A DNA stretch of 64,000 nt, taken from Rothia aerolata (GTDB lineage Bacteria > Actinomycetota > Actinomycetes > Actinomycetales > Micrococcaceae). Where the stretch lies: contig NZ_BMDC01000004.1 of the NCBI RefSeq assembly GCF_014635585.1, positions 124,001-188,000 of the forward strand, written 5' to 3'. The notes under the pieces are model-generated. The model saw only the letters and a program-made list of their open reading frames with translations, searched no databases and was not told where the DNA came from. A program made the translations under genes and the position numbers. Within the stretch, counting starts at the first letter, position 1; each line of letters opens with the position of its first letter. This document shows, in pieces, positions 29,722 through 45,279 of this stretch.

Positions 29722-30702
29722 ATGGTTTTACCCGCTCCGCGCATCCACCGTTCCCACACCTCAGATGAACGTGAACACGTGCAGCTGCTTCTACAGGTAG
29801 CCCGGCTCTACTACGAACAGGGTGCCACCCAGGCCCAGATTGCTAAAAAGGTGGGCTACTCCCGGCCTACCGTCTCGCGCCTGCTGACCGAGGCGCGCGA
29901 GCAGGGGGTGGTGCACATTCGCATCAACCATCCGCTGGAACGTGCCATGTCGATGGAGGTGGAGCTGGCAGAGAAGTTCGGCCTGCACGATGCCCGCATT
30001 GCCGAATCCAGCGACCTTGCCGGGCTCACCCAGAAGATTGCCCGTTGCGCCGCCGACTATCTGGTGGAAACCTCCTACGAGGACTCGGTGATTACCGTCT
30101 CCAACGGTTTTGCCGTGAACGCCACGATCGAGGCGATGCCGCAGATGAACTGGGCGCAAACACGGGTGGTGCAGGCGATTGGCTCAGTCAATGATTCCGA
30201 GGTGATGGTCGATTCCTCAGAAACCTGCCGCCGCCTGGCCAGCCGCCTGGGCGGCCGCCACTACGCCCTGCCCGCTCCCCTGCTGGTGGATTCGCCAGAG
30301 GTAGCAACCTCGCTCACCCATTCCCGCCAGGTTGCCTCAATTCTTGAGCTGGGCGCCCGCGCCGATTTTGCCCTGGTGGGTATTGGCACGATTGACCGCG
30401 GCCGCGAGGGGCACGTATTCAATGGACTCACGGACGCCGCCGTGAGTGAGGTTCTCGACCGTGAGGGCGCGGTGGGGCATGTGTGCGGCCACCACTTCAA
30501 CGCCGCCGGTGAGCACGTGAGAACACCCCTGTGCAACCGAACCATTGGCATCACCCTAGAACAGCTACGCGAGCTCCCGCGGGTGATTGGGGTTTCCTGG
30601 GGCGAGCAGAAGGTTCCGGCTATCCGCGCCGCACTGCTGGGCGGCTTTATCTCGGCACTGGTGACCGATAGGACGACGGCGCAGGCGCTGCTGGACTCCT
30701 AG
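29722..30702 (+). CDS. SorC/DeoR-type transcriptional regulator
   Basis: 326 residues. N-terminal HTH (LLQVARLYYEQGATQAQIAKKVGYSRPTVSRLLTEAREQGVV, about 21-62), then a SorC sugar-binding domain (residues about 75-325) with AIGSVND, GIGTIDRG and GHVCGHHFNAAGE, and GVSWGEQKVPAIRAALLGG near the end. Members respond to sugar phosphates. No sugar gene is adjacent, so the target is unclear; it may act elsewhere or on itself. Confidence 0.88.
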   Translation: MVLPAPRIHRSHTSDEREHVQLLLQVARLYYEQGATQAQIAKKVGYSRPTVSRLLTEAREQGVVHIRINHPLERAMSMEVELAEKFGLHDARIAESSDLAGLTQKIARCAADYLVETSYEDSVITVSNGFAVNATIEAMPQMNWAQTRVVQAIGSVNDSEVMVDSSETCRRLASRLGGRHYALPAPLLVDSPEVATSLTHSRQVASILELGARADFALVGIGTIDRGREGHVFNGLTDAAVSEVLDREGAVGHVCGHHFNAAGEHVRTPLCNRTIGITLEQLRELPRVIGVSWGEQKVPAIRAALLGGFISALVTDRTTAQALLDS

Positions 30703-30726
30703 GGCTTAAATAAAAAGAAAGCAAAC

Positions 30727-30761
30727 AGAGTAAATAACAAGCATGCCTGCTATTCACTCTG
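30727..30761. terminator. Weak hairpin between convergent genes
   Basis: AGAGTaAATA/TATTcACTCT with an inner GCA/TGC stem, between the SorC gene and the Tat-secreted protein gene. One mismatch; moderate support. Confidence 0.4.
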
Positions 30762-30820
30762 CTTACTTCCTATTAAACATTTCACCCCAAAAGCTTTTAG
30801 GGGAAACCATCATAAAGCTT

Positions 30821-31465
30821 CTAATATCTCGGTTGAACGGTATTGGACAACCACTGAGAAGTAAATGATTCAGAGTATCCGTTGGCGGTCATAAACGACT
30901 CGGAGAACTGCACATAATAGGTGCGCATAATCCGATAGCAGGAGTAGCGGTCAATGGTCACCCGGGTGCGCAGAATGCTATCGGGCCAGGAGGGCTCAGT
31001 GGCGCCCTTGGGAATGGTCTGAGCGGTGCGCACGCCCGTATAGGTAAAGGTATAAACATCGGTGAGCACTCCATTGACCGTTTGGCGCACCGGACCCGAG
31101 ACCGTGTAGGCGCCGCCGGTCACGGCAATGGACTTGATCGGGCCCACCGGAAAGGCCGCCTTGAGCTCAAAACGCCCAAGTGTTGCGGTGGTAATCGGAG
31201 AGTCGTAATCCCAGGCCTGAACAGCAAAGCCTGCCGGTCGCCCATCCACGCTCATAGCTGTATCGAAGGTGAAATAGTCGTAGTGGACAGTCCCGCTATA
31301 GCAACCGTTAGAGGCATACCAGTCAGTGGCCAACCACGAGAGTGATAGCTCGTATTCAGGCTTGGACGACGCCGCGTAGGCGGGAACACTGGCAGAGGCA
31401 ACAACTGCGGGTGTAGCCCAGGCAAGCCCCTTGGCCAGGGTTCTGCGCGATACTTCTGAAGTCAT
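30821..31465 (-). CDS. Tat-exported secreted protein of unknown function
   Basis: 214 residues. VSRRTLAKGLAWATPAVVAS is a twin-arginine signal; cleavage is likely after PAYA (residue about 31). The mature part is a beta-rich domain with many aromatic residues (ELSLSWLATDWYASNGCYSG, FTFDTAMSVDG) and two Cys that may pair. Similar Tat-signal proteins with this leader are common in Micrococcaceae surface proteins; I do not recognise the domain. GGGGAAATT precedes the ATG. The upstream 220 bp are AT-rich and hold no other gene. Confidence 0.7.
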   Translation of the reverse strand: MTSEVSRRTLAKGLAWATPAVVASASVPAYAASSKPEYELSLSWLATDWYASNGCYSGTVHYDYFTFDTAMSVDGRPAGFAVQAWDYDSPITTATLGRFELKAAFPVGPIKSIAVTGGAYTVSGPVRQTVNGVLTDVYTFTYTGVRTAQTIPKGATEPSWPDSILRTRVTIDRYSCYRIMRTYYVQFSESFMTANGYSESFTSQWLSNTVQPRY

Positions 31466-31689
31466 ATAATTTCCCCAAGTTAATGTGCATAGTGTGAGGA
31501 TTTCAAAAACGTGTGGAGGTTTTTAAAATCCGTGCAGCTCTGGTGGCTGAAGAATTAATAGTACTATTAACGGGTGAAATTTATTATGTGATATAGCATA
31601 CAAAAATAAGAAGCAAACGAATTTTTAGCGCCCATTTCTGCAGGGAAAATGCAGGAAATACGCCTTCCGTACAGAAGTTACCCCTGGGT

Positions 31690-33012
31690 TTACCCGAAAG
31701 AAATACGCCCGGCCTCAGCCAGGTCTTCGCGCACAGCGCCGCTACGGGCAAACTCGGCCCAGATTCCCCGCAGGGCAGACCCCTGCACAGCTCGCTCATA
31801 GGTACTTGAGCCCGCCAAGAGCTTGGAACCCTCCCAGGCGGGGTTGTCAAAGAGTAGCGCCAGCTCGGTGCAGTGGGCTGAATAAAGGTAGTGCAGCGAG
31901 TGCCCCACCGCCAGCGAATAGCTAGTACCCACCCCGCCAGCACTCCGGTGCCGGGCAATCAAATCTCGGGCAGGCTGTTGATAAAGATCGCGGGTTCCCT
32001 TACGAATCAAACTCTCTCTAGCACCCCGTAAGAAAGGTAACCGCGGCAGAAAATAGGCAGCCTCCCTTAAATTGGCCCCCACCAGAAGATCAACCGAACC
32101 GGCAACAAACCGCCAGGCAGAGTCCGCCTCTTCTAAAGACGGAAGCGGATAGTGCCCATACTGGGTTCCAAAGGGCATCATGGCAGGGTAAAAACCGCCC
32201 ACCAGCGGATTGCCAAAAACATTCTTCCAGGAGGCTACTCCAAAGTCAGAGGCGGGAGCATCATCGGCAAGAGAGGCGGTCTTTTTCAGCAGGTGCTTAG
32301 CCAGGGATTCCTTGTGGTTCACCAGATCCAGCGGTGCCGACTGCGAAATCACCCGCCGCACCAGCCCCTCTGACACCACTCCCTCGGTCAGCAGAAGCTG
32401 GGTTGCCAAATCGCCACCCGCCGACTGCCCAAAGACCGTCACATTAGCGGGGTCGCCGCCAAAAGAAGAGATATGGGTGGCTACCCAGCGTAGCGCCTCG
32501 CGCACATCGAGCAGGCCCAGATTTGCAGGCCGCTGCGGTGAGCCACCCAGAAAGCCCAGCAGTCCCAGCCGAAAAGTCACCCGAACCACCGCCACGCGCT
32601 CGTCCAGCACCAGGCGCGCGGGAATGTAGCGAGCGCCGTCCCCCGATCCCGCCACATAGGAGCCGCCGTGGAGGTAGACCATCACCGGTAGCTTCTCCCC
32701 CGCGGAATAGTCAGCGGGAAAAGAAACGGTGAGGTTTTGGCAGTCCTCGCTCATGAGCACCGACTGGCGAATATCGCCGTCCTTACCGCGCAGGAACTGC
32801 GGGGCGGCGGGGGCGGGAGTATCGGCAACAAAAGGATTTCCGAAGTCGGTGAAATTCACCGGGTAGGGACGGCCGAAGCGGCGCGCCCGCGCGTAGGGCA
32901 CACCGCGGGCTTCAAGGTAGGTGCCGCGGCTTTTAGCAGAGGACGACGCCGCGCCCGGGTCTTCGAGCTCCAGCGCCAAAAGTTCGCCGCTGGGCGTTGA
33001 GATGGCTTGCAT
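31690..33012 (-). CDS. Type-B carboxylesterase
   Basis: 440 residues, alpha/beta-hydrolase. Oxyanion loop MVYLHGGSYVAGSGD, NLGLLDVREALRWVATHISSFGGDP, and the nucleophile elbow VFGQSAGGDLAT (Ser) match the COesterase family; an acid and a His should lie further on (the GHSLHYLYSAH region has the likely His). The substrate is unknown. It starts 25 bp downstream of the histidine kinase gene with AAGGAA before its ATG, so it may be part of the same leftward transcript. Confidence 0.85.
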   Translation of the reverse strand: MQAISTPSGELLALELEDPGAASSSAKSRGTYLEARGVPYARARRFGRPYPVNFTDFGNPFVADTPAPAAPQFLRGKDGDIRQSVLMSEDCQNLTVSFPADYSAGEKLPVMVYLHGGSYVAGSGDGARYIPARLVLDERVAVVRVTFRLGLLGFLGGSPQRPANLGLLDVREALRWVATHISSFGGDPANVTVFGQSAGGDLATQLLLTEGVVSEGLVRRVISQSAPLDLVNHKESLAKHLLKKTASLADDAPASDFGVASWKNVFGNPLVGGFYPAMMPFGTQYGHYPLPSLEEADSAWRFVAGSVDLLVGANLREAAYFLPRLPFLRGARESLIRKGTRDLYQQPARDLIARHRSAGGVGTSYSLAVGHSLHYLYSAHCTELALLFDNPAWEGSKLLAGSSTYERAVQGSALRGIWAEFARSGAVREDLAEAGRISFG

Positions 33013-33037
33013 GGGTTCCTTCCAGAGTGAAGAGGGC

Positions 33038-34519
33038 CTACTCCGCGGCCAGGGGTAGGCGGCAGGTAAATTCGGTGTAGCCCGGCCTGGATGAGACCGA
33101 AATGGAGCCCCCGTGAGCCTCCAAAATCGCTTTCACGATGGGCAGGCCCAGGCCGGTGGTGCCGTCAGAACCCGACCGAGCCCTATCTGCCCGGCTAAAG
33201 CGGTCAAAGATTTTATCGATAAAGTCGGGAGAAATTCCCGCCCCGTTATCGGAGACCCGCAGCAGGGCTTCGCGGCTCTCAGGGGAGATGTCCAGGCTGG
33301 CGGTCACCACGGTTCCGGGGTCGGTATGCTTTCGGGCATTGGAGAGCAGGTTGACCAGAACCTGCTGGAGCTGGGCGGGGTCTGCCCACACCTCTACCGG
33401 CTGCTCGGGCAAATCCATCTTCCAGGTGTGGTCCCCGGCCGCTACCTGAAAGTCCGAGACGTTTTCAATGAGCAGTTCGGTGAGGTCAACGGTGGCTTTT
33501 TCGGGCTCCCGCCCCTCGTCCAGGCGCGCCAGCAACAGCAAATCTTCTACCAGGCGGCTCATGCGGTGGGTCTGCGACTCAATCCGGTCTACCGACTGCT
33601 CACCAGATTCACTGAGGTTCTCTGTCCAGCGGATGAGATCTGAGTAGCCCCTAATAGCCGCCAAGGGGGTTCGCAACTCGTGGGAGGCATCGGCGATGAA
33701 ATCGCGCATCTGATCTTCGGTTCGCTGCCGGTCTTTCAGGGCTGTCTCCACGTTATCCAACAACTGGTTCAGGGCAAAGCCCACCGCGCCCACCTCAGAG
33801 TCGGGGTGAGAGTCTTCTACACTCACCCGGCCGTGGGGAAGCATCTCGGTGGAAAGGTTGGTGTGGGCCACCGCGGTGGCAACGGAAGAAACCCTCTCCA
33901 GAGGCTTCATGGTGCGGCGAATAATCCAGGAGCCGAGCCAGCCCGCCAAGACGATAACCGCCGCAGAGCCCAAGGCCATCACCAACGCCAGCACGGCCAG
34001 GGTGGTGTGCACATCGTGCAGAGGAATTCCTGTAATTACAAAAACTTCAGACTCTCCGGGAACCGCATTCGACTCCACCAGATAGTCACCCCGGTCGAGA
34101 TCCACCTCCACCGGATTGCTGGTAGTAGGAACCTCCGCCAGCACGGCCCGGTCAGCCTCGCTCAAGGTCTGAAACTGCCCGCCGCTATCTAAAATGCCAG
34201 AGAAAATAACCTCCCCCTGCTTCAGGCAGGCGCTGACGGTACCGGCCCCCTGCCCTGGCGCATCCAGCGGCCCCCTCCCCCTCTCGGCGGAGCAGACCTG
34301 CTGCGAAGCGGAGGACGCCGCGGCGTCGTCCTCATCCCCCGGACTAAAGGTCACCGCGCGGTGGGCGGCTTCAGAAAGCCGCCCGGCAGCCTGCCCCATC
34401 AGGGAGTTCTGAAGGGTCAGATAGCTCGAAACGCCGATAATCAAGCAGGCGATACCCAGCATTACCACCAGAATGGCGGTGAGCTTGGTGCGCAAGCGGG
34501 GCATGCGGTGAAGGTTCAT
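33038..34519 (-). CDS. Sensor histidine kinase
   Basis: 493 residues. First membrane helix about 13-33, an extracytoplasmic sensor domain with two Cys (about 35-170), second helix about 172-195, HAMP, HisKA with ADASHELRTPLAAIRGYSDL (phospho-His), and HATPase boxes NLLSNARKHTDPG, SDNGAGIS and TTGLGLPIVKAILEAHGG. The plan is that of MprB/PhoR/TcrY-like kinases of actinobacteria. Its ATG overlaps the response regulator stop (ATGA), so the two make one pair. Signal unknown. Confidence 0.92.
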   Translation of the reverse strand: MNLHRMPRLRTKLTAILVVMLGIACLIIGVSSYLTLQNSLMGQAAGRLSEAAHRAVTFSPGDEDDAAASSASQQVCSAERGRGPLDAPGQGAGTVSACLKQGEVIFSGILDSGGQFQTLSEADRAVLAEVPTTSNPVEVDLDRGDYLVESNAVPGESEVFVITGIPLHDVHTTLAVLALVMALGSAAVIVLAGWLGSWIIRRTMKPLERVSSVATAVAHTNLSTEMLPHGRVSVEDSHPDSEVGAVGFALNQLLDNVETALKDRQRTEDQMRDFIADASHELRTPLAAIRGYSDLIRWTENLSESGEQSVDRIESQTHRMSRLVEDLLLLARLDEGREPEKATVDLTELLIENVSDFQVAAGDHTWKMDLPEQPVEVWADPAQLQQVLVNLLSNARKHTDPGTVVTASLDISPESREALLRVSDNGAGISPDFIDKIFDRFSRADRARSGSDGTTGLGLPIVKAILEAHGGSISVSSRPGYTEFTCRLPLAAE

Positions 34520-35262
34520 GCGGTCGCGGGCTTAATCACGTAGCCGGCACCGCGCACGGTATGAATCATAGGCTCCCTCCCCGCATCAATCTTCTTCCGC
34601 AGGTAGGAGATATAGAGCTCCACGATATTCGCCTGGCCACCAAAGTCATAGTTCCACACGTTGTCGAGAATCTGAGCTTTAGACACCACCCTCTTAGCGT
34701 TCTCCATCAGGTAGCGCAGCAGCTCAAACTGGGTGGCGGTCAGCGCAATATCCTCACCTGCCCGTCGCACCTCTCGGGTATCAATATTCAGCACCAGGTC
34801 ACCGACCACCAGCTCAGCACTATCAGCCGTTGCCACCCCCGAACGCTGCACCAGCCGGTGCAGGCGAATCATGACTTCTTCCATAGAGAAAGGCTTGGTC
34901 ACGTAATCATCAGCGCCAGCAGCAAGGCCAACAACGCGGTCATCCACCGAATCCTTGGCAGTGAGAAAGAGGCAGGGAACGTGGGGGTACCACTTTCGAA
35001 CCCGGGAAAGCAGCTCCACGCCGTCAAAACCGGGCAGCATAATATCTAGCACCAGCACATCGGGGCGCCAGCCCTTCACCAGCTCTAGCGCCTCGGGGCC
35101 GCTTGAGGCAGAGCGAACCTCCCAGCCAATCATGCGAAGCCCAACGCTAATGAGCTCCTCCAGCATCACCTCATCATCAACCACCAGGGCTTGAATGGGT
35201 GAACCATCGGGATGCTCTAGCTTGGGTAGACTCTTTGCGATCTCAGTTGCTTTGCTGCTCAT
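34516..35262 (-). CDS. OmpR/PhoB-type response regulator
   Basis: 248 residues. Receiver domain (IQALVVDDEVMLEELIS acidic pocket, phospho-Asp in VLVLDIMLPGFDG, Lys in VTKPFSMEE) and a C-terminal winged helix (LNIDTREVRRAGEDIALTATQFELLRYLM...YISYLRKKID). It sits first in the operon with its kinase. There is little ribosome-site signal before the ATG. A short palindrome just upstream (35272-35289) may be an operator. Confidence 0.92.
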   Translation of the reverse strand: MSSKATEIAKSLPKLEHPDGSPIQALVVDDEVMLEELISVGLRMIGWEVRSASSGPEALELVKGWRPDVLVLDIMLPGFDGVELLSRVRKWYPHVPCLFLTAKDSVDDRVVGLAAGADDYVTKPFSMEEVMIRLHRLVQRSGVATADSAELVVGDLVLNIDTREVRRAGEDIALTATQFELLRYLMENAKRVVSKAQILDNVWNYDFGGQANIVELYISYLRKKIDAGREPMIHTVRGAGYVIKPATA

Positions 35263-35271
35263 ACTGTATAG

Positions 35272-35289
35272 ACTAGCCGGGCGGCTAGT
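35272..35289. promoter_or_regulatory. Palindrome upstream of the response regulator
   Basis: ACTAGCC-GGGC-GGCTAGT, 10 bp before the response regulator start. The position suits an operator. Confidence 0.4.
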
Positions 35290-35565
35290 TGACCGGCACT
35301 CTCAGAGTGGCTGTTTTGCGGCTTTTGAACCAGCCTCTCAGGAACTTTTGCGCACATCTTACAGCGTTGAAAATATTTACTTAGGGCAACCTAAGAATGT
35401 CGAAAAATAGACAGAACACCATGATGAAAGTAAGCCGCATTTACTTTAAGACCTATCGCAACCATGCTCTGACTAGGGGGAACTCTCAACCTGGTGGAAA
35501 ACTGGGTAAAAAATAATGAGACCCAAGTTACCCTCAAGTAGGACAAAAATTTTTTCTAAAATTAC
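35290..35565. other. Intergenic DNA without a recognised gene
   Basis: AT-rich stretch between the two-component system and the small-RNA promoter. I see no coding frame, repeat or strong hairpin in it. Confidence 0.5.
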
Positions 35566-35595
35566 TTGCACCCGAAAGCTATCTGTGAATATACT
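35566..35595 (+). promoter_or_regulatory. Strong sigma-A-type promoter for the small RNA
   Basis: TTGCAC (35566-35571), 18-nt spacer, TATACT (35590-35595), in AT-rich DNA. Start of transcription expected near 35602. Confidence 0.65.
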
Positions 35596-35601
35596 TTAAC
35601 C

Positions 35602-35768
35602 GTTGTCAACTATTACACCCGCAAGGGTGTGTGCGAGACTGAACCGCTGAGCACGGCTCGCGGTTCCTTTAGACTGGTTCGCACCGGTGGTTGTGGTTCC
35701 CCCCGGTGCGAACCTTTCTAACCACGGCCCGCGGGTTTCAGGTTCCTGAGACCCGCGGGTTTTTCTAT
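35602..35768 (+). ncRNA. Structured small RNA candidate with intrinsic terminator
   Basis: About 165 nt with four successive hairpins: ACACCC-GCAA-GGGTGT (35615-35630, a GNRA tetraloop); GAACCGCtGAGC/GCTCGCGGTTC (35641-35666); GGTTCGCACCGG/CCGGTGCGAACC (35676-35687 with 35703-35714, 15-nt loop); and a 15-bp terminator stem (35728-35742 with 35745-35759, one G.U) followed by TTTTT. It has its own promoter and terminator and no convincing coding frame. I do not recognise it as 6S, SRP, tmRNA or RNase P RNA. Confidence 0.65.
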
Positions 35769-35900
35769 ACCACCGGGGCTCGGTCACTATCCCCTCCCTG
35801 CGTTAAAGAGCTAGCCTCTGGGGTTATTAGGCAGAAAAGTGTGTCCCGCCCCGGGCTTCGCTTATACCTTTGGCACTTCAGTGGAAATCTACAAAACCAC

Positions 35901-35955
35901 AAAGTTGCAGTTTTGGTTCTTAAAACCTCTGAATAAGAACCAAAACTGCAACTTT
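35901..35955. repeat. 22-bp stem-loop
   Basis: Perfect arms 35901-35922 and 35934-35955 with an 11-nt loop, in non-coding DNA about 130 bp after the small RNA. No T-tract. Confidence 0.7.
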
Positions 35956-36119
35956 TGGGTTATGGGTGCCGACTCAATGAGACAGAGCGGTCGTATAGGC
36001 TGCCATGATCGTCGAGTGGCCAATTTATGACCGTTTTTCTCCGATTTTCGGTTTAAAAATGGCCTCTCGCGGAAGCTCGGTAGGTAAAGTACAAGCTTCT
36101 TCTTTGTCGGGCTGGCGTC

Positions 36120-36179
36120 GGTACACCTGTGTTCCCTGGGTACACGTCTAGACGTGTACCCAGGGAACACAGGTGTACC
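36120..36179. repeat. Perfect 60-bp palindrome without spacer
   Basis: 30-bp arms meet at 36149/36150 with no loop at all and no mismatch. The outer ends read GGTACACCTGTG and CACAGGTGTACC, the centre ACGTCTAGACGT. The flanks carry weaker related blocks (a TTGCTTGTACCTT-like motif on both sides in opposite orientation). Confidence 0.85.
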
Positions 36180-36659
36180 TTTGTCCTTTCAAACGGGTTT
36201 TGCTTGTACCTTAGGTCTACCCACAGGAATCTACGTGTACCGAGATCCTGTTTCAGCGCAAAATCCAGGAATACCCCATATCGCAGGTGCTGGAATTTTG
36301 GGTGGTAGTGGGTTGAGGTTAGTTTCTGGGACTAAGTTGTGGGGTTGGTTGTTTTCTGGCTGTGAGGGCGTTGGGGATACACTTTTACCCCATACCCCTA
36401 TCCAACCCCGCCCCAGCATGATTCAACGCCTCAAACCAAACAATAATAGCAATCGACAGAGTCGTCACTAGGTCAGGAGTCAACTCACAAGCTATCGCTA
36501 ATAGGTGATTGCATTAGATCGCATGCTATTGAATGTTTTGTTTACAGCACTGCGGGATATGTGTTTTTATAAGTGTCATATACTGACTGAAGGTATGTCG
36601 TAGACTTTTTCCTTCGTTTGACTAGGTGTTTTGGTAGCTCTGTTATCAAACTGTTATAT
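36180..36659. other. Intergenic DNA without a recognised gene
   Basis: Between the palindrome and the bacteriocin-like gene I see no convincing coding frame. A segment at about 36193-36235 resembles one at about 35850-35895, which may be remnants of a duplicated element. Confidence 0.4.
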
Positions 36660-36675
36660 AGTAAGTTGACTTACT
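36660..36675. promoter_or_regulatory. Inverted repeat in the promoter region of the bacteriocin-like gene
   Basis: AGTAAGT-TG-ACTTACT, 73 bp before the start codon, in an AT-rich promoter region with TATAGT and TATATT -10-like elements on either side. Candidate operator. Confidence 0.4.
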
Positions 36676-36747
36676 TATATTGTGTGTGTGAGGTTTAAGT
36701 GTTGCCAATCACCAGAGCAAAGATACTCTGGGACGAAAGGAAGAACA

Positions 36748-37302
36748 ATGACTCCTGGAAAGAAAATCTCCACTAATTTTGCTATCGGACTCCTTGCTGT
36801 GGGCACAATATGTGCCGTTGCTCCGAGTGCCCATGCGACGACTCCTACTAGCACTGTTTCAAGTACGAACGCTACTGAAGGTTCACTCAAGTATCTCGCT
36901 GTTAACGATAGTCAAGCCATCATCGGCTCCAACGAGTTCGATCTTTCCTTTAACGATGAGGGCAAAGCTATCGCCACCGATACAGAAGGTAACTCAGAGG
37001 TGCTTCCCGAGGAATCAGTTGACCAGAACGGCAATCAAATCTTCTTGAAGTATGAAGATAACGGAAATAACGAGTTACTTGTTTCCGCAATCGCAACTAC
37101 AGAAATGCGTAGTGTAGGTCAATGCCTGACCGGTATCGGAGGTGGAGCCGTAACTGGCGCAGGAACTCTAGGCCTAGCTGGCGCGGCAGTTGGAACTGTC
37201 ACTCTCCCTGTTATCGGAACCGTAGGAGCCGGGGGAGTAGGCACCGTAGTTGGTGGAGTAGGCGGTGGCCTAACTGGCGCAGCTGCATCATGTTTTGGAT
37301 AG
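36748..37302 (+). CDS. Secreted glycine-zipper protein, bacteriocin-like precursor
   Basis: 184 residues in three parts. A Sec signal (ISTNFAIGLLAVGTICAV, cleavage after AHA at about 30). An acidic middle (about 31-120) that looks like a propeptide (ATDTEGNSEVLPEESVDQNG, ISP-like strands). A C-terminal core of 59 residues between Cys126 and Cys182, made almost only of Gly, Ala, Val and Thr with repeated GxxxG steps (GGGAVTGAGTLGLAG, GTVVGGVGGGLTG). Such cores insert in membranes as helical hairpins, as in colicin-V-like and two-peptide bacteriocins. Start is the ATG at 36748 with AAAGGAAG upstream; a longer frame from 36682 has none. Function is inferred. Confidence 0.65.
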   Translation: MTPGKKISTNFAIGLLAVGTICAVAPSAHATTPTSTVSSTNATEGSLKYLAVNDSQAIIGSNEFDLSFNDEGKAIATDTEGNSEVLPEESVDQNGNQIFLKYEDNGNNELLVSAIATTEMRSVGQCLTGIGGGAVTGAGTLGLAGAAVGTVTLPVIGTVGAGGVGTVVGGVGGGLTGAAASCFG

Positions 37303-37344
37303 AATTTCAACATCTGTCCCATCAAGGATATTTGAGCGATATTT

Positions 37345-37536
37345 ATGTTAGAAAGAATTCAAAATAATATTGGTCTTCCAGCAATTCTTCTGTATTGGGG
37401 TTTAGGCATAGTTAGCTACCTGCTGTTTCGTAGTATAGAAGCAGATTTGGTGCTCATTGGGTGGCTCCTTGGAGTCCCATTTGTAGCAGTAGGTACGTTG
37501 TTAACCCTAGGGTGGTTCCTGGGAAGGGAGTCTTAG
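37345..37536 (+). CDS. Small membrane protein, possible immunity partner
   Basis: 63 residues with two membrane helices (about 11-29 and 33-57) and short charged ends (MLERIQNN, GRES). It starts 42 bp after the secreted glycine-zipper protein in the same direction, with only weak ribosome-site signal. Small two-helix proteins in this place are usual for bacteriocin immunity, but nothing in the sequence proves it. AT-rich like its neighbour. Confidence 0.5.
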   Translation: MLERIQNNIGLPAILLYWGLGIVSYLLFRSIEADLVLIGWLLGVPFVAVGTLLTLGWFLGRES

Positions 37537-37694
37537 TGCGCTTGATAAAGCCAAGATATTTTCCTAATAAGTCCACCACCATTTGATTAAGGATGCTCTC
37601 AGCTCCTTTTCCTAGGTTTAGCCCAAAGCTACTAGCGATTGAGATTGAGCAGAATAATATTTCTGCCCACCGCAGAGCTTAAAGCCCCACTAAG
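37537..37694. other. Intergenic DNA
   Basis: No gene or clear signal between the small membrane protein and the hairpin at 37695. Confidence 0.5.
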
Positions 37695-37753
37695 GAGCCG
37701 GCTTCTGAACAAAGAGCCGTCTTTCTAGCGGCCTTTTGTTCAGAAGCCGGCTC
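37695..37753. terminator. Hairpin with 19-bp arms
   Basis: Perfect arms 37695-37713 and 37735-37753 around a 21-nt loop that has its own GCCG/CGGC stem. It separates the bacteriocin-like unit from the DUF202 genes; the T-tract is poor. Confidence 0.6.
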
Positions 37754-37838
37754 TTTAACAGCGCCGAAGCCAGAAAATTCTGGTATTGCTAGAGGTAGCC
37801 CAGGTTGACAGCCCAGCAGACCGAGAGCAAGGAGACAC

Positions 37839-38213
37839 ATGAGCAAGGACGATCGAGACTGGCTCTCCCGCAAGCTTTTCCGCGAGGGAACCGAACCTGA
37901 CCCGCGTTTCACCCTGGCAAACGAGCGCACCTTTCTAGCCTGGATTAGAACCTCCCTCGCCTTTCTCGCGGGCGGCATCGCCGCCTACGCCTTTGAGGGA
38001 ATGCCCGGCATTGACGGCGAACGTTGGCACATCATCGCCTTTCTCATGCCCATCCTTGCCTGCATCCTCACCGTTTTTGCGGTCTTTCGCTGGATTCGGG
38101 TAGAGCGCTCCATGCGGGTGGGAAAGCCCCTGCCCTCCCCTGCCGGACTCCCCCTTATTGTTCTAATCGTTGCGGTTTCTTCGGCAATCGTGGTTAGCCT
38201 GTCTGTGGTCTAG
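37839..38213 (+). CDS. DUF202 (YidH-like) membrane protein
   Basis: 124 residues with three membrane helices. ANERTFLAWIRTSLAFLAGGIAAYAF is the DUF202 signature; a short basic stretch (RWIRVERSMRVGKPLP) separates helices 2 and 3. Function unknown in general. AAGGAGACAC precedes the ATG. It is followed after 1 nt by a second DUF202 gene. Confidence 0.85.
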   Translation: MSKDDRDWLSRKLFREGTEPDPRFTLANERTFLAWIRTSLAFLAGGIAAYAFEGMPGIDGERWHIIAFLMPILACILTVFAVFRWIRVERSMRVGKPLPSPAGLPLIVLIVAVSSAIVVSLSVV

Positions 38214-38214
38214 C

Positions 38215-38598
38215 ATGTCTGATTTTTCTCAGGAGCGGAGGCGCAGCAAAACCAGAAGGCTCCGTTTTCGCCGTAGCAACACCAATCCCCGTTTTCTTGA
38301 GCCGATTCATTCCGATGTTGGCCTACAGCCCGAGCGCTCCTCCCTCTCCTGGGTACGCACCTGTTTCTCTCTCTTTATTCTGCTTCTTGTTCAACTGAGA
38401 CTGGGGCATTTTACCCTCTTCCCCACCCTGATCATCATCGGAGCAACGGTCTGGGTCTTCTTCACAGCAACCACCCGCTATGAGAACCAGGCACGCGGGG
38501 TTGCCAATGAAAAGTACCACCCCAACACCGCCCAGGTTCTTGGGCTGGCCGCACTGGTACTTGCCATGTGTATCGCGATAATTCTGACCCTCTTCTAG
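38215..38598 (+). CDS. DUF202 membrane protein (partner)
   Basis: 127 residues: basic N-terminus (SQERRRSKTRRLRFRRSNT), then DVGLQPERSSLSWVRTCFSLFILLL, the DUF202 motif with R-T-L/S-W-x-R, and three helices. YidH/YidG-type pairs of this kind are common and may form one complex. The ATG at 38215 lies directly behind the TAG of the first gene. Confidence 0.82.
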   Translation: MSDFSQERRRSKTRRLRFRRSNTNPRFLEPIHSDVGLQPERSSLSWVRTCFSLFILLLVQLRLGHFTLFPTLIIIGATVWVFFTATTRYENQARGVANEKYHPNTAQVLGLAALVLAMCIAIILTLF

Positions 38599-38611
38599 GG
38601 AGTAAGCCCCG

Positions 38612-38673
38612 TTGTACAGGGTTATCTCTGATGTACAGAGATACCGCTGTACATCAGAGACAAGCCTGTACAA
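38612..38673. terminator. Two-tier hairpin
   Basis: Outer arms TTGTACAGG/CCTGTACAA and inner arms of 14 bp (38625-38638, 38647-38660). Contains repeated TGTACAG. Follows the DUF202 pair. Confidence 0.65.
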
Positions 38674-38701
38674 AATAAGTGGGTTGCGGTCTTCTAACAC
38701 A

Positions 38702-38743
38702 GTGGCCCCTGTACCCAGGAGAATTCCTGTGCACAGGGGCCAC
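38702..38743. terminator. Bidirectional terminator
   Basis: GTGGCCCCTGT/ACAGGGGCCAC with inner CAGGA/TCCTG, just downstream of the leftward GntP gene. Confidence 0.65.
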
Positions 38744-38761
38744 GCCTATATCTCAGAGCTC

Positions 38762-40234
38762 CTAGGAAAGAGCCGGGAAAGCCAGGCCGGCGGCAACCAC
38801 TGCCACCAGGCCAATGAAGGGCACCAGCACGGTAACCACACCAATGTCTTTGTAACCCTGGCGGTGGGTCATGCCACACACCAGCAGCAGGGTCACAATA
38901 GCGCCATTATGCGGCAGAGAGTCGAAGCTAACCGATGCCATAGCAATAGCGCGGTGCATCAGTTCAGCACTAATTCCCTGGTCAGCCGCCATCTGAGAGA
39001 GCTGCTCACCAAAAGACTGCAGGGTAATGGAAAGACCGCCAGAGGATGAACCGGTAATACCCGAAATCACCGCGGTAGCCACCACGCCCACAATCAGCGG
39101 GTTATCACTGACCCCAAAGAGGCCATCGCGCAGAACGGCAAAGACAGCCAGTGAAGCAATCACGGCACCGTAACCCACCTCAGAGGCGGTGGTGAAAACG
39201 GGCAGAACCGCCGTCTTCGCGCCGTCATTAAGCGACTCGACGTACTCTTTAAACTTCTTGGGCTGCATCAGGAAGATCAGAATTCCCGCAACCACCAGCG
39301 CCACGGTCACCGACCACACGCCCAGTACCGCCTGCAGGGTGGTGGCGCCGAACTTCTCTTCGGCGAGGTAGGAGGTATCGAGGCGCGGAGAAATTACGTA
39401 AACGTAGAGGGCGTTGACAGCCACAACCACCAGAATCGGCAGCAGACCGATCAGGCCGCGCTTGGCAGTGCCCACCGGCGGCATCACGATGGCGGCGGTT
39501 TCGGGGGCGGGGCGGTCGCCGATACTTTCGGAGACGCCGTCGGTGCTGGGGGACGACGGCAGTAGGGTGTTCTCTGACTTAACGGCGAAATCGATGAAGC
39601 CCTCACCGGCCTTTCTCATGCTGCGCTCCCGCCACATCAGCCAGCCCATACCGCACACAAAGGTAACCGCTGCACCAAAGAGGCCCAGAATCGGGGCGGC
39701 GAAGGTGGTGGTACCGAAGAAGCGGGTGGGAATCGCGTTGTGAATCTGGGGAGAACCGGGTAGCGCCGCGGTAGCAAAGGTAAAGATACCCAGAGCAATA
39801 GCGGCAGGAAGCAGACGCATTGAGACGTTAGCGTTCTTAAAGAGCGGCTTAGCAATGGGAACGATGGTAAAGGCAATCACCCAGGCGCTCACACCACCGT
39901 AGGTGAGAAGAGCGGTGATGATAGCGGTAACCAGCACAGCCCGCTTAGGGCCGAAAATCTGGGGAATCCAGCGGGCAATGTCTTCGGCATAGCCGCTGAC
40001 AGTCATCAGGCGGCCAAAAATAGCACCCGCTAGGAAGAGCGGGAAGAAGCCGATGATGAAGTTACCCAGAGCAGGCATAAAGATCTGGGTGTAGGAGGCG
40101 AGCAAGGGTGCGCCAGAAAAAGCGATAGCAATCAGAGCTGCGAGTGGAGCAATAGCAACAACGGAGTGTCCTCGGTATGCGAGACCGATCAGGAACACCA
40201 GCGAAAGAACTATGCCTATCAAACCCCAAAGCAT
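38762..40234 (-). CDS. GntP-family permease
   Basis: 490 residues with about 13 membrane segments. GFFPLFLAGAIFGRLMTVSGYAEDIARW, the first repeat motif LTYGGVSAWVIAF with FATAALPGSPQIHNAIPT, and the second SGITGSSSGGLSITLQSFG with SFDSLPHNGAIVTLL show the two-fold repeat of gluconate/hydroxy-acid (GntP/CitMHS-like) carriers. A long cytoplasmic loop (about 205-265) is in the middle. The substrate may be an organic acid. AAGGAG precedes the ATG; a MarR-type palindrome lies just upstream. Confidence 0.83.
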   Translation of the reverse strand: MLWGLIGIVLSLVFLIGLAYRGHSVVAIAPLAALIAIAFSGAPLLASYTQIFMPALGNFIIGFFPLFLAGAIFGRLMTVSGYAEDIARWIPQIFGPKRAVLVTAIITALLTYGGVSAWVIAFTIVPIAKPLFKNANVSMRLLPAAIALGIFTFATAALPGSPQIHNAIPTRFFGTTTFAAPILGLFGAAVTFVCGMGWLMWRERSMRKAGEGFIDFAVKSENTLLPSSPSTDGVSESIGDRPAPETAAIVMPPVGTAKRGLIGLLPILVVVAVNALYVYVISPRLDTSYLAEEKFGATTLQAVLGVWSVTVALVVAGILIFLMQPKKFKEYVESLNDGAKTAVLPVFTTASEVGYGAVIASLAVFAVLRDGLFGVSDNPLIVGVVATAVISGITGSSSGGLSITLQSFGEQLSQMAADQGISAELMHRAIAMASVSFDSLPHNGAIVTLLLVCGMTHRQGYKDIGVVTVLVPFIGLVAVVAAGLAFPALS

Positions 40235-40288
40235 AGAGACTCCTTGAAGGACTAAGTAAGGAAAGATTGAGCGGCAAACGGGCCGCGA
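40235..40288. promoter_or_regulatory. Leader of the GntP gene
   Basis: Contains the AAGGAG ribosome site of the GntP gene; otherwise no feature. Confidence 0.5.
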
Positions 40289-40310
40289 TTTAGTTCACCT
40301 ATGAACTAAA
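40289..40310. promoter_or_regulatory. Palindrome, candidate MarR operator
   Basis: TTTAGTTCA-CCTA-TGAACTAAA, upstream of the GntP gene. AGTTC half-sites recur at about 40466-40472 and in the marR-hmgA gap near 41083-41088, so the neighbouring MarR protein is the likely ligand. Confidence 0.5.
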
Positions 40311-40552
40311 TTTTTGAGCATGACCCATATATTACATACCAAAAACGTGTTCTACGCCATGAAGTTTCGCTGTGTGAAACCGAATTTTCAGGGGTTGATC
40401 GAGCAAAATCCGCGAGATGTCAAGGGAAAAGTGCACTCTGACACTAAGTAAAAATTTTTAAAAATAGTTCACTTGTTGACAAGTTTTAGATCCGATATAT
40501 AGAGTGATAGCCATCATAACGGAAAGGGGATTAGCGCAGTTTGCGCGGCTAC

Positions 40553-41062
40553 TTACGCACCGCTTTCCCGCTCAATCGAACGAGAGAGACTCAGCTTGTT
40601 GAGCAAGATACTCAGTATCTCTTGTTCGGAGTCGGTGAAGTCGGCAAGTAGCTTACGCTGCAGGCGCTCCTGCTGTTCGACAGCAGCCTTGACCAGGCGG
40701 CGTCCCTCATCGGTGAGGGAGAGGACGATCGATCGTCCGTCGTCAGGCGAGGGGCTCCGAGTCAGCAGCCCCCTCTTTTCAAAGGAGGAAGACAGACTTG
40801 AGACAGATGCTCGACTAGTGTTGGTGAACTCTGCGGCACGAACCGGCTCAATATCGCCCATAACCCACAGAACAAACAGCAGGCGGTAGCCAGACCAGGT
40901 GAGGTTCAAAGACTTATGAACCTTGCTTTCGAACTCAGAGATGAGGTTCGAAGAGGTGCGGTTTAGCTGAACCAAAACCGTGTTGAGCCGGGGATCGATA
41001 GAGGGAATTTCTTCCCGTAGCCGCCGCTCAGAAAGTTCACCGAAGGTACGAGCATCAATCAT
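40553..41062 (-). CDS. MarR family transcriptional regulator
   Basis: 169 residues: an N-terminal helix for dimerisation, the winged helix at about 70-125 (VRAAEFTNTSRASVSSLSSSFEKRGLLTRSPSPDDGRSIVLSLTDEGRRLV, with the wing DGRS), and a C-terminal helix. It lies divergent to hmgA with 59 bp between, so it most likely controls the homogentisate genes, perhaps with homogentisate or an intermediate as ligand; it may also act on the GntP gene. Confidence 0.88.
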   Translation of the reverse strand: MIDARTFGELSERRLREEIPSIDPRLNTVLVQLNRTSSNLISEFESKVHKSLNLTWSGYRLLFVLWVMGDIEPVRAAEFTNTSRASVSSLSSSFEKRGLLTRSPSPDDGRSIVLSLTDEGRRLVKAAVEQQERLQRKLLADFTDSEQEILSILLNKLSLSRSIERESGA

Positions 41063-41121
41063 CTTTAGTCTTCTTTTCTTTGATTAGTTCTTCCACCGAC
41101 AAACTGAAGGGATAGGTAGAC

Positions 41122-42333
41122 ATGCCTTTCTACACGAAAGTTGGTCTTCTTCCAAAGCATCGCCACACGCAGATGCGTGATGAAGATGGCAACCTCTACT
41201 ACGAGGAGCTTCTCGGAGAAGAAGGCTTCTCGCTCGATTCATCACTTGCTTACCACAAGCATATTCCATCGGCCCTGGTTGATGTGCGCTCCTGGGAGCT
41301 ACCCGACCAGACCCTAACCCCCAACGACCCGTTGCTTCCCCTGCATCTGAAGCTGCACGATCTGACCTTCGAGGGTGAAGGTGGCAAGGTCGATGCTGTG
41401 CGTCACCGCCGCCTGGTGCTGGGCAACAGCGACGTCCGTATCTCCTACGCCCTGGTCAACGAAACCAGCCCCCTTTACAAGAACGGCATTGGCGATGAAC
41501 TCGTCTATGTCGAGCGCGGTTCGGCCCTGGTAGAGACCATGTTCGGTGCCCTGGAAGTTTCTCAGGGTGACTACATCATCATTCCCCGCGCTGTTATTCA
41601 TCGCTGGGTTCTGCGCGATGGGGAAGAGGCCCGCCTCTACTTCATCGAGGCTAACTCCCACGTGGCTCCGCCCCACCGCTACCTCTCCCGCTACGGTCAG
41701 CTGCTGGAGCACGCTCCCTTCTTCGAGCGCAACTACCGCATTCCGACCGATCCGCTGCTGGCTGACGGCCAGGATGTTGAGGTCTACATCAAGCACCGCG
41801 GCCACGGTCCCTCGGGTGTTTCAGGCTCCATCCACGTGATGCCCGAGCACCCCTTCGACATCGTCGGTTGGGACGGCTGCCTCTACCCCTTCGTATTCAG
41901 CGTCTACGACTACGCGCCTATTACCGGCAAGCTGCACCAGCCGCCGCCGTCACACCAGGTCTTTGAGGGTCACAACTTTGTTGTCTGCAACTTTGTGCCC
42001 CGCAAGGTGGATTACGCCGAAGGCGCAATCCCCGTGCCCTACTACCACTCCAACGTTGACTCCGATGAGGTCATGTTCTACGTAGAGGGTGACTACGAGG
42101 CTCGTAAGGGCTCCGGTATCAACCAAGGCTCTATCTCCCTGCACCCGGCGGCCCACTCTCACGGCCCCCAGCCCGGTGCTATGGAGGCCTCCATCGGCAA
42201 GGAGTTCTTCGATGAACTGGCCGTGATGGTTGATACCTTCCAGCCCCTGCTCCTTGGCGAAGCCGGCCTTGCAGCCAACGATCCGGCCTACAAGTCCTCC
42301 TGGACCGGCGGCCGCTGGATTGGTCAGAAGTAA
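41122..42333 (+). CDS. hmgA: Homogentisate 1,2-dioxygenase
   Basis: 403 residues. Opens the ring of homogentisate to 4-maleylacetoacetate with Fe(II). Cupin features are clear: GDYIIIPRAVIHRW, then the iron ligands in YYHSNVDSDEVMFYVEGDY (His about 310, Glu about 316) and LHPAAHSHGPQPG (His about 346). SGSIHVMPEHPFDIVGWDG is a strong family block. First gene of the operon, with GAAGGG upstream and a MarR gene divergent. Its TAA shares a base with the next ATG. Confidence 0.93.
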   Translation: MPFYTKVGLLPKHRHTQMRDEDGNLYYEELLGEEGFSLDSSLAYHKHIPSALVDVRSWELPDQTLTPNDPLLPLHLKLHDLTFEGEGGKVDAVRHRRLVLGNSDVRISYALVNETSPLYKNGIGDELVYVERGSALVETMFGALEVSQGDYIIIPRAVIHRWVLRDGEEARLYFIEANSHVAPPHRYLSRYGQLLEHAPFFERNYRIPTDPLLADGQDVEVYIKHRGHGPSGVSGSIHVMPEHPFDIVGWDGCLYPFVFSVYDYAPITGKLHQPPPSHQVFEGHNFVVCNFVPRKVDYAEGAIPVPYYHSNVDSDEVMFYVEGDYEARKGSGINQGSISLHPAAHSHGPQPGAMEASIGKEFFDELAVMVDTFQPLLLGEAGLAANDPAYKSSWTGGRWIGQK

Positions 42334-43175
42334 TGACTGAAGCGACGTTTGAGAAGTTCTTTGACGACGCCGCTGTCTTTCCCCCGGGGCTAGCGCCCCT
42401 TGAGCGCGCGGTGGATGAGCACATCCGCCGCGCTGCAGATCCGGTGGCCTCACGTTTTGTGGGGCCTCTGGTTCTGCCTGTGGGACAGGTAGAAAAGGCG
42501 ATAGAGTTGGCTGGTTCCTCTGCCATTGATATCAATGTGGTGGGCCCCGCCGAGCAGATTGACGATCTTAAGAAGATAATGTCTGCCAACACCACCGATT
42601 CTCGGGTGGTCGGTGCCGAGTTTAAGCTGGGCTCCCTTGAGGCCCCCGAGGCTTTGAAGGCGGTTGCTGATTTCGCCTCGGAGAACAGCAGTATTGAGGT
42701 TTATCTGGAGCTGCCCTACGAGCAGGTAACCGACGAAAACCTCGATTTCCTGGCCCAGCACGGCATTAATCTGAAGTTCCGCACCGGCGGTGTGACCGCC
42801 GATCTCTTCCCCTCAGATACCGAGCTGGTGGATGTCATCGACAAGGCTCTGCGCCACGAACTGGCCTTCAAGTTCACGGCGGGTCTGCACCGGGCGATGC
42901 GCTACACCGATGAGGAGACCGGCTTTGACCACTTTGGTTTTGCCAACATCGGTGCGGCCATCGATACCCTACAGCGCGGGGGTAGTCGGGACGACGCTCT
43001 GGCGGCTCTCAACAGCACCGACAGCGATGCTGTGAGCGAGAAAATCACCGCCGGAGACACTGAATGGCGCGAGGCTTTCCGCTCCTTTGGTACCTGCTCG
43101 GTGCCAGAGCCCACGGGAACCCTCCGCGACCTGGGGCTAATGCGCCCCGAAACTGTTGAACGATTCGAGATGTAG
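42333..43175 (+). CDS. Unknown protein between hmgA and fahA (candidate isomerase)
   Basis: 280 residues, soluble. Conserved-looking blocks are FFDDAAVFPPGLAPLERAVDEH at the N-terminus, LKFRTGGVTADLFPSDTEL in the middle, and FKFTAGLHRAMRYTDEETGFDHFGFANI (about 175-205). The alternating strands and helices suggest a TIM-like barrel. I recall similar unannotated proteins in Streptomyces. It is translationally coupled to hmgA (TAATG) and 7 bp from fahA. The pathway step between them is maleylacetoacetate isomerase, usually a glutathione enzyme, which no other gene here supplies. Confidence 0.7.
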   Translation: MTEATFEKFFDDAAVFPPGLAPLERAVDEHIRRAADPVASRFVGPLVLPVGQVEKAIELAGSSAIDINVVGPAEQIDDLKKIMSANTTDSRVVGAEFKLGSLEAPEALKAVADFASENSSIEVYLELPYEQVTDENLDFLAQHGINLKFRTGGVTADLFPSDTELVDVIDKALRHELAFKFTAGLHRAMRYTDEETGFDHFGFANIGAAIDTLQRGGSRDDALAALNSTDSDAVSEKITAGDTEWREAFRSFGTCSVPEPTGTLRDLGLMRPETVERFEM

Positions 43176-43182
43176 GAGAGTC

Positions 43183-44406
43183 ATGAGTTTTGCAGATACC
43201 TATTCAACCGCTGGTTTTGGTGTTCAGAACCTGCCTTACGGTTCCTTTTCTGCCGACGGCGGTAAGACTTTCCGTCTCGGTGCCCGCCTCGGCGAGCGCG
43301 TGATTGACCTGGGCGCCCTGGCAGCTGCCGTGGGCGGCCTGGATGAAAAGGCCACCCAGGCTGTCTCGGCATCTAACCTTGATGCTCTGCTGGCAGCGGG
43401 TGCCTCTGTGTGGTCGCAGGTGCGCACCTGGTTGCAGAAGGTAGTCACCGAAGAAGAGGTCAGCACCGTTGAGCCTCACACCCACGCGGTAGACGGTGTC
43501 ACCTACCAGCTGGCTTTTAGCCCCGCTGACTACGTGGACTACTACGCTTCCGAGCACCACGCTACCAACCTGGGCAAGATGTTCCGCCCCAATGAGGATG
43601 CCCTGAAGCCCAACTGGAAGCACCTGCCGGTGGGCTACCACGGCCGCTCCGGCACCGTGGTTGTTTCCGGCACCGACGTGCCCCGCCCCAAGGGTCTGCG
43701 CCCCGAAGAAAGCGGTATTCCCAGCTTTGGCCCCAGCCGCCGTCTTGATATTGAGGCTGAGATTGGCTTTGTGCTGGGAGGCTCCGCCCCTAAGGGTGAG
43801 GTGAGTGTGCAGAAGGCAGCTGAGGAGCACATCTTTGGTGTCTTCCTCTTCAATGACTGGTCTGCCCGCGATATTCAGAATTACGAGTACGTTCCCCTGG
43901 GCCCCTACCTGGGTAAGTCTTTCGCTTCGACCGCAGGCACCTGGATTGTTCCCTGGGAGGCGCTGAAGGCCGCCCGTGTTGATGCGCCCGAGCGCACCTA
44001 TCCTGTGGCCTCCTACCTTGAGGACGGCGCTGAGGTGGGCGGCGGTTACGGCCTGGACATCACCATGGGCGTGACCGTCAACGGCGAGACTGTCTCCCAC
44101 CCGCCCTTCAAGTACCTTTACTGGACAGCGCCGCAGATGGTGGCTCACATGACCGTCAATAACGCTTCTCTGCGCCCCGGCGATATGTTTGCCTCCGGCA
44201 CGGTTTCTGGCCCCGAGAAGAGCCAGCGCGGCTCCTTCATTGAGCTGAGCTGGGGAGGTAAAGAGCCGCTGACCTTGAAGGACGGCTCTGAGATGTTCTT
44301 CCTCGAAGACGGCCAGGAGATTGGTCTTACCGGCACCGCTCCCGCAGCTAATGGCGAGACCATTGACTTCGGTGAGTGCCTGGGAACCATCAAGCCGGCA
44401 ACCTAA
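43183..44406 (+). CDS. fahA: Fumarylacetoacetase
   Basis: 407 residues. Splits fumarylacetoacetate to fumarate and acetoacetate. Motifs: YASEHHATNLGKMFRP (catalytic His), WKHLPVGYHGRSGTVVVSGT, EAEIGFVLG and NDWSARDIQNYEYVPLGPYLGKSF (metal ligands Glu/Asp and the Lys), and GDMFASGTVSGPE near the end. I chose the ATG at 43183, with TAGGAGAG before it. It ends the hmg operon; a terminator hairpin follows at 44421. Confidence 0.93.
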   Translation: MSFADTYSTAGFGVQNLPYGSFSADGGKTFRLGARLGERVIDLGALAAAVGGLDEKATQAVSASNLDALLAAGASVWSQVRTWLQKVVTEEEVSTVEPHTHAVDGVTYQLAFSPADYVDYYASEHHATNLGKMFRPNEDALKPNWKHLPVGYHGRSGTVVVSGTDVPRPKGLRPEESGIPSFGPSRRLDIEAEIGFVLGGSAPKGEVSVQKAAEEHIFGVFLFNDWSARDIQNYEYVPLGPYLGKSFASTAGTWIVPWEALKAARVDAPERTYPVASYLEDGAEVGGGYGLDITMGVTVNGETVSHPPFKYLYWTAPQMVAHMTVNNASLRPGDMFASGTVSGPEKSQRGSFIELSWGGKEPLTLKDGSEMFFLEDGQEIGLTGTAPAANGETIDFGECLGTIKPAT

Positions 44407-44420
44407 TAACCCGCGATGAG

Positions 44421-44451
44421 GGCACCCTGGCATCTACAGATGCGGGGTGCC
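44421..44451 (+). terminator. Intrinsic terminator after fahA
   Basis: GGCACCC/GGGTGCC with an inner GCATC/GATGC stem and a TACA loop, followed by TTCCTTAATTTTTT. Confidence 0.75.
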
Positions 44452-44532
44452 TTCCTTAATTTTTTATAGCGCACAGTAGGGTTTTGCTACCGCTGAGGAA
44501 CTCTGCAGGTGGCAGACACAAAGAAGGTAATC

Positions 44533-45249: not shown

Positions 45250-45279
45250 CCTGCAGGCTGTGAAGAGAGGATTTAGACA

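Follow-up and report, generated by a model that had tools for sequence, protein, structure and literature searches.

Closticin 574 of Clostridium tyrobutyricum is made as a 309-residue precursor, from which a mature bacteriocin of 82 residues is released outside the cell (PMC10888436, in the part of the paper available). The Cdz system of Caulobacter (CdzC/CdzD/CdzI) comprises glycine-zipper toxins with a small transmembrane immunity protein, and has spread horizontally in a patchy manner (PMC5380434, accessible part). In the lactococcin 972 family (mediterrocin), a beta-strand peptide is freed by signal-peptide removal alone, and the probable immunity protein is a seven-helix DUF1430 protein (PMC12345188, likewise in part). 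Here, we analyze a 64,000-nucleotide stretch of Rothia aerolata DNA (contig NZ_BMDC01000004.1, positions 124,001 to 188,000; hereafter the window, whose own numbering is used throughout), which carries a two-gene cassette. We predict from sequence, with a probability of about 0.8, that the cassette encodes a class II-like bacteriocin, masked by a propeptide and exported by the general secretion (Sec) pathway, together with its cognate immunity gene as a mobile two-gene unit. An earlier note, made from the sequence alone, had proposed an undescribed bacteriocin and immunity pair at this place. Our results support the pair, but the predicted core is not of an unknown kind, being of class II type and Blp/PF10439-like. 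The new part is the precursor, in which a Sec signal and a folded pro-domain replace the double-glycine leader and transporter.

The closest way of working is that of closticin 574, while the closest core is that of Blp-type class II bacteriocins. Closticin 574 likewise has a signal peptide, a long propeptide, and a C-terminal core; the likeness is one of description rather than sequence, the cleavage here is predicted, and the mature part of closticin 574 differs in its 82 residues. Going by the primer letters given in the available part of PMC10888436, the closticin-related CLB peptide begins differently. Likeness to the lactococcin 972 family is that of a Gram-positive bacteriocin with a predicted Sec signal. 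With Blp-type bacteriocins (PF10439, also TIGR03949), the window protein shares a Cys near the start of the core, a Gly/Ala-rich stretch, a GTVTLPxxGTV centre, and a GAA..C end. Small membrane genes adjoin PF10439-type bacteriocins.

The window protein differs from PF10439 bacteriocins in its leader, its score, and its export. In place of a double-glycine leader, it has a Sec signal followed by a propeptide of 91 residues that includes a predicted folded domain, and it falls below the cut-offs of both PF10439 and TIGR03949. Neither the whole protein (P0001) nor its core alone is assigned to a Pfam family, and the PF10439 model spans the leader that is absent here. TIGR03949 (lactobin A/cerein 7B; threshold 21.5 bits) has no match at the window gene, and its best match in the genome, elsewhere, reaches 17.9 bits. 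No C39 exporter is present at the locus; the genome's only C39 match (E ≤ 0.001) lies on another contig (C1:522974-523354). Thus, although the core resembles PF10439, the leader, the score, and the lack of a transporter keep the protein from being filed as a member, and we regard it as a predicted class II bacteriocin variant with a different precursor.

The cysteines of the core are fixed in spacing across the family. The precursor gene occupies 36748-37302 on the forward strand (ATG at 36748, stop at 37302; 184 amino acids), and the membrane-protein gene follows 42 bp after its stop on the same strand (37345-37536; 63 amino acids). A profile search places the class II bacteriocin-like core at residues 122-184 (37111..37302, including the stop codon). 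This core is rich in Gly, Ala, and Val, with cysteines at residues 126 and 182 and 59 residues from Cys126 to the end of the protein. The earlier note had all of these coordinates, lengths, and cysteines right. We examined 61 family members, that of the window among them; the Cys pair occurs in 57 and has a spacing of 55 residues in 50 of these. The placing of Gly is not due to chance: a 14-sequence core alignment contains 12 invariant Gly columns, with five pairs spaced by four.

The core is similar to class II bacteriocins in more than composition. To avoid circularity, our profile was made from 14 Sec-type cores and from no double-glycine-leader sequences. Among the 7995 scored candidates, those sharing most words with it, there were 72 matches at E ≤ 0.1, of which 34 carry Pfam PF10439 (Bacteriocin_IIc). 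No other Pfam domain except the ComC leader occurs among the 72. Nine are named bacteriocin at their source, five of these as Blp family class II bacteriocin; one (P0100) matches with an E value of 6e-7 and 61% identity over 94% of the core. Because Gly/Ala/Val-rich sequences can match by composition, each PF10439 match was compared with 200 shuffles of itself. All 200 were outscored by 32 of the 34 matches, and for 31 of these 32 the scores were 33-60 bits, with the best shuffles reaching 2.5-16. The two misses (P0099 and P0132) and one bare pass (P0097) had, judging from their sequences, been cut at the wrong place by our rule. Pfam assigns P0094, P0098, P0100, and P0107 to PF10439, three of the four above threshold. 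The profile search suggested in the earlier note therefore does reach annotated class II bacteriocins.

The precursor is modular. Residues 1-30 (36748..36837) have by eye the features of a Sec signal peptide: a KK pair, a hydrophobic stretch, and A28-H29-A30 before T31, after which cleavage is expected. An acidic propeptide follows (residues 31-121; 36838..37110), with a net charge of -12 over residues 32-121, compared with 0 for the core; the signal and acidic middle described earlier are thus confirmed. AlphaFold2, given 45 sequences, predicts residues ~46-118 as a confident small all-beta domain of eight strands, the remainder of the protein being of low confidence. Block-mean predicted local distance difference test (pLDDT) values are 85-94 over residues 51-110. 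In the alignment of the 45, L86, P87, and Y102 of the middle region are invariant, as are both cysteines. We found no convincing resemblance to this fold in the PDB or a viral library, which does not in itself imply a new fold. The parts also occur in other combinations. A 107-residue protein (P0085) with a signal-peptide-like start carries a C-terminal core of the same kind without the beta pro-domain, and in Streptococcus danieliae (L021, from a scan of GTDB genomes) a core of the same kind stands behind a double-glycine leader.

The precursor is probably cut after R121. The residues directly before the core read ...TTEMR which, together with the Sec-type start, indicates that the window protein has no double-glycine leader. 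In the double-glycine-leader relatives that we inspected, the leader ends 4-5 residues ahead of the first Cys. In the present family, Lys or Arg occupies position -5 before this Cys in 18 of 43 distinct segments, and the window protein has R121 there. These two observations make R121 the likeliest site.

The family is spread over Bacillota, Actinomycetota, and Bacteroidota. A search of 5.8 billion proteins returned 78 matches at E ≤ 1, the window's own included. The nearest relatives are P0003 (75% identical) and P0004 of a Rothia sp. (73%), and other members come from Bacillus, Priestia, Terribacillus, Staphylococcus, Mammaliicoccus, Corynebacterium, Rhodococcus, and Pseudoclavibacter. Most are called either "hypothetical" or "Pathogenicity island protein" at their source, the latter in 22 of the 78 cases. 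No match in the protein or core-profile searches bears a name that tells of a known non-antibacterial role. Through the core, we also reached proteins of Flavobacterium, Sphingobacterium, and Chryseobacterium; a lipoprotein-like start is seen in two of these three. The GTDB scan gave 19 loci and added Mobiluncus, Aerococcus, Streptococcus, an Actinomycetaceae, a Eubacteriaceae, and other Bacteroidota. Literature searches found no paper describing this precursor family among the best matches listed. One candidate, PMC11322243, concerns another protein in the part available, while a recent large survey of class II bacteriocins (IIBacFinder; known to us from part of a preview article, PMC12648078) may include members.

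A small two-helix membrane protein is regularly encoded directly after the precursor. In the window, this 63-residue protein has two hydrophobic stretches (hydropathy maxima 1.85 and 2.33), and it is our proposed immunity protein. We scored a locus as paired if an open reading frame of 45-95 residues with two hydrophobic stretches started within -45 to +120 bases of the precursor stop. This was the case at 17 of 19 loci, the window included, compared with 6 of 134 other long open frames of these loci and again 6 of 134 frames without overlap on either strand; both controls are open frames rather than proven genes, and the 17 paired loci are not independent. By their small proteins they form seven groups in all, listed as Rothia; Bacillus; Staphylococcus with Aerococcus; three Bacteroidota; Actinomycetaceae with Mobiluncus; and two singles. 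The two misses were L011, where a matching frame lacks a usual start codon, and L016. Left out of the 19 were L021, whose downstream sequence is cut off; L003, which duplicates L006 in place; the weak matches L002 and L005; and L004, which was read later. By position and topology, the co-occurrence foreseen in the earlier note therefore holds.

Further Bacillus-group loci gave a similar picture. Seven of nine have the small reading frame, and these seven are the loci in which our pattern found the end of the core; none was found in L054 and L056. One of the seven, L050, is the place of L007 again. In L053 and L055, the small frame stands beside an interrupted precursor, as expected of an immunity gene that is still useful alone. 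In the protein database, P0150 (70% identical) is the single relative of the window's small protein; among 35 genomes of the genus, it has one match besides itself, in another Rothia. Loci of different genera (BLASTP, 1e-5) have only four gene types in common besides the pair, at varying distances: sensor kinases, response regulators, a 404-431-residue protein (L010 and L013), and a 236-270-residue protein (L017 and L019). This agrees with the earlier remark that no export or processing gene is adjacent.

The cassette is patchy in distribution and probably mobile, as supported by genome counts, plasmids, IS257, and base composition. Only 4 of the 35 genus genomes match at E ≤ 0.01, own included, with a 43-residue weak match in one of them (G015). 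In the genus of a B. velezensis genome, 9 of 44 genomes match. The own genome is the only match in a class sample of 394, and is joined by one weak match in an order sample of 396. Another Rothia genome (G030; contig JAUMWB010000007.1) shares 36647-37524, a unit of promoter region, precursor gene, and membrane-protein gene on the forward strand (blastn, 71.6% over 895 columns), and carries it elsewhere in the chromosome. Nothing else in 30001-46000 of the window matched 20 kb of that contig (L036), and the response-regulator gene of that genome is on another contig. On a Staphylococcus aureus plasmid, the gene pair is recognizable by eye. The relative from S. hyicus matches 19 staphylococcal plasmids; two of these plasmids were read, and on both an IS257 transposase lies close by, while the annotation of one splits the gene into two overlapping pieces. 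Phage records gave no match to the family. The G+C content at third codon positions (GC3) is 0.405 and 0.391 in the two cassette genes, compared with 0.618-0.752 in 14 other, hand-chosen, reading frames of the window. The DNA was rightly called AT-rich in the earlier note, and the low GC3 of both genes makes the cassette look foreign.

We propose the following course of events. The precursor would leave the cell through the general Sec pathway, as its signal peptide suggests. During export, the acidic beta-fold pro-domain would keep the very hydrophobic core soluble and harmless. A protease would then cut just before the core, here probably after R121, releasing a 63-residue peptide whose two cysteines would close a long loop. 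By homology of the core, the freed peptide may enter the membranes of related bacteria in the form of a helical hairpin packed through its glycines, making them leak in the manner of class II bacteriocins. In the membrane of the producer, the 63-residue protein would block the cell's own peptide, a role suggested by its position, size, and rapid divergence.

A third Rothia genome hints at a broader arrangement. This genome (G025) encodes a precursor with the same kind of pro-domain but a clearly different Gly-rich core, ending ATFC (L043, 5801-6370, reverse strand), followed after 18 bp by a different membrane protein of 58 residues (5606-5782, reverse strand). On this basis, we tentatively entertain, as somewhat less than an even chance, a polymorphic, transporter-free platform spanning the three phyla. 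It would combine a conserved, folded, Sec-exported acidic pro-domain (in Bacteroidota, a different, lipoprotein-like pro-region) with interchangeable class II cores and a small, fast-diverging two-helix immunity gene, the pro-domain acting as both intramolecular chaperone and inhibitor and the two genes moving together as a complete cassette.

Several observations weigh against a masked bacteriocin with its immunity protein. The core models are of low confidence (mean pLDDT 54.8), and neither the precursor nor the small protein scores above the cut-off of any Pfam or NCBIfam model. Similarity scores can be raised by Gly/Ala/Val sequence of low complexity, and shuffles test residue order rather than convergence. 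The PF10439 relatives also match glycine-zipper models, weakly and below cut-off. The repeated GxxxG emphasized in the earlier note is present, with seven copies in the Cys-to-Cys core, but this number is at chance (shuffling the same residues gives a mean of 6.3; P = 0.46), and what stands is the conserved placing of Gly. The Arg at the proposed cut is not general, most Bacillus members having Gln there, and no protease is linked to the gene across loci. Our pairing thresholds were set after a first look at the loci. The seven groups of small proteins have no similarity between them at an E value of 1e-3, so that we use the term immunity on grounds of position and topology. Elsewhere, several copies of the precursor are interrupted. 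Finally, a closticin-574-like Bacillus peptide, of Sec type with an apparently different core, was inactive against two indicators (PMC10888436, available part).

The cassette might instead encode one half of a two-peptide bacteriocin, with its partner elsewhere and the core weak or inactive alone. Among the annotated relatives of the core are Blp family peptides, a group in which pairwise action is common. In Sphingobacterium chungjuense, a second protein that has a long pro-region and a Gly-rich tail ending in Cys (L015, 3176-3937) lies ~2.5-3 kb from the precursor. However, the genome of R. aerolata holds a single precursor of the family, its second match being weak (E 0.063) and within a 444-residue frame, and the cassette common to two Rothia genomes contains one precursor gene only. 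We consider this arrangement unlikely.

Less probable still is a glycine-zipper toxin like Cdz, whose precursor aggregates on the surface of the producer, stays attached there, and kills neighbours on contact. A Gly-rich core, a small membrane protein proposed to give immunity, and patchy spread recall Cdz as described in the accessible part of PMC5380434. A lipoprotein-like start, seen in the Bacteroidota loci L013, L014, and L020 and perhaps in the Eubacteriaceae locus L016, would also fit. Against this, the window protein has a Sec signal and folded pro-domain, with no lipobox or anchor visible by eye. Cdz itself differs in having a type I secretion system, two short toxin proteins, contact dependence, and an occurrence particularly in proteobacteria. 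No transporter gene is among those common to the loci, and no type I secretion genes were seen by eye among the window neighbours. The least probable alternative is a secreted protein that has a membrane partner and a structural or signalling role, as an amyloid or a peptide pheromone would: Gly-rich hydrophobic segments can aggregate and no curated family covers the precursor, but similarity of the core to annotated bacteriocins, strongly divergent partners, and patchy, partly plasmid-borne spread suit a toxin with its immunity protein better.

Candidate signals flank the two genes. An inverted repeat, AGTAAGT-TG-ACTTACT, at 36660..36675 is a possible operator or promoter element found by sequence scan. 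It is the sole window match at ≤2 mismatches (0.08 expected; 8 of 100 shuffles had at least one) and the sole exact copy genome-wide, while at ≤2 mismatches the genome has 4 places versus 3 for a reversed control pattern. The repeat reported in the earlier note is thus present, but in the Rothia relative it is kept in part, with TAGTAAGTTGACTT retained and a mismatch in one arm. A ribosome-binding-site-like AAAGGAAG (36736..36743, forward strand) lies ahead of the ATG at 36748, and ACGAAAGGAA of it is retained in the same relative. Downstream, a repeat scan found a 29-nt inverted repeat (90% complementary; 37691..37757) as a possible terminator. A shorter stem with a T-rich tail at 37716-37732 is one of two such structures, compared with a shuffle mean of 1.2, which is near chance.

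The surroundings of the cassette contain further repeats. By eye, a sensor kinase and response regulator type pair lies to the left, and small membrane proteins lie to the right. The intergenic stretch before the cassette holds a perfect 30+30 nt palindrome without a spacer (36120-36179) and a 31-nt inverted repeat (90%; 35892-35964). A 131-bp intergenic element at 35589-35719 is 77-80% identical in two other genus genomes (L038 and L045), and lies ~5 kb from the response regulator gene in L045 versus ~0.3 kb in the window. Elsewhere, the 2.46-Mb host genome (seven contigs) encodes two lantibiotic precursors of the mersacidin/lichenicidin type, which match TIGR03898 at 62.1 and 55.9 bits against a cut-off of 23.5. 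They lie on the reverse strand at 7108-7353 and 7385-7627 of L044 (G000:C1:520000-533000), ~4 kb from the C39 match, and their cores are nearly Cys-free, with no Cys in one and one in the other.

Mining methods often seek a transporter, and PF10439 covers the double-glycine leader; this family has neither. If our interpretation is true, two genes and the general secretion pathway would suffice for this additional type of bacteriocin, whose carriers include Rothia, Bacillus, staphylococci, Corynebacterium, Mobiluncus, and Bacteroidota. A further question is whether a folded pro-domain can stand in for a dedicated exporter as the means by which a producer is protected from its own membrane-active peptide.
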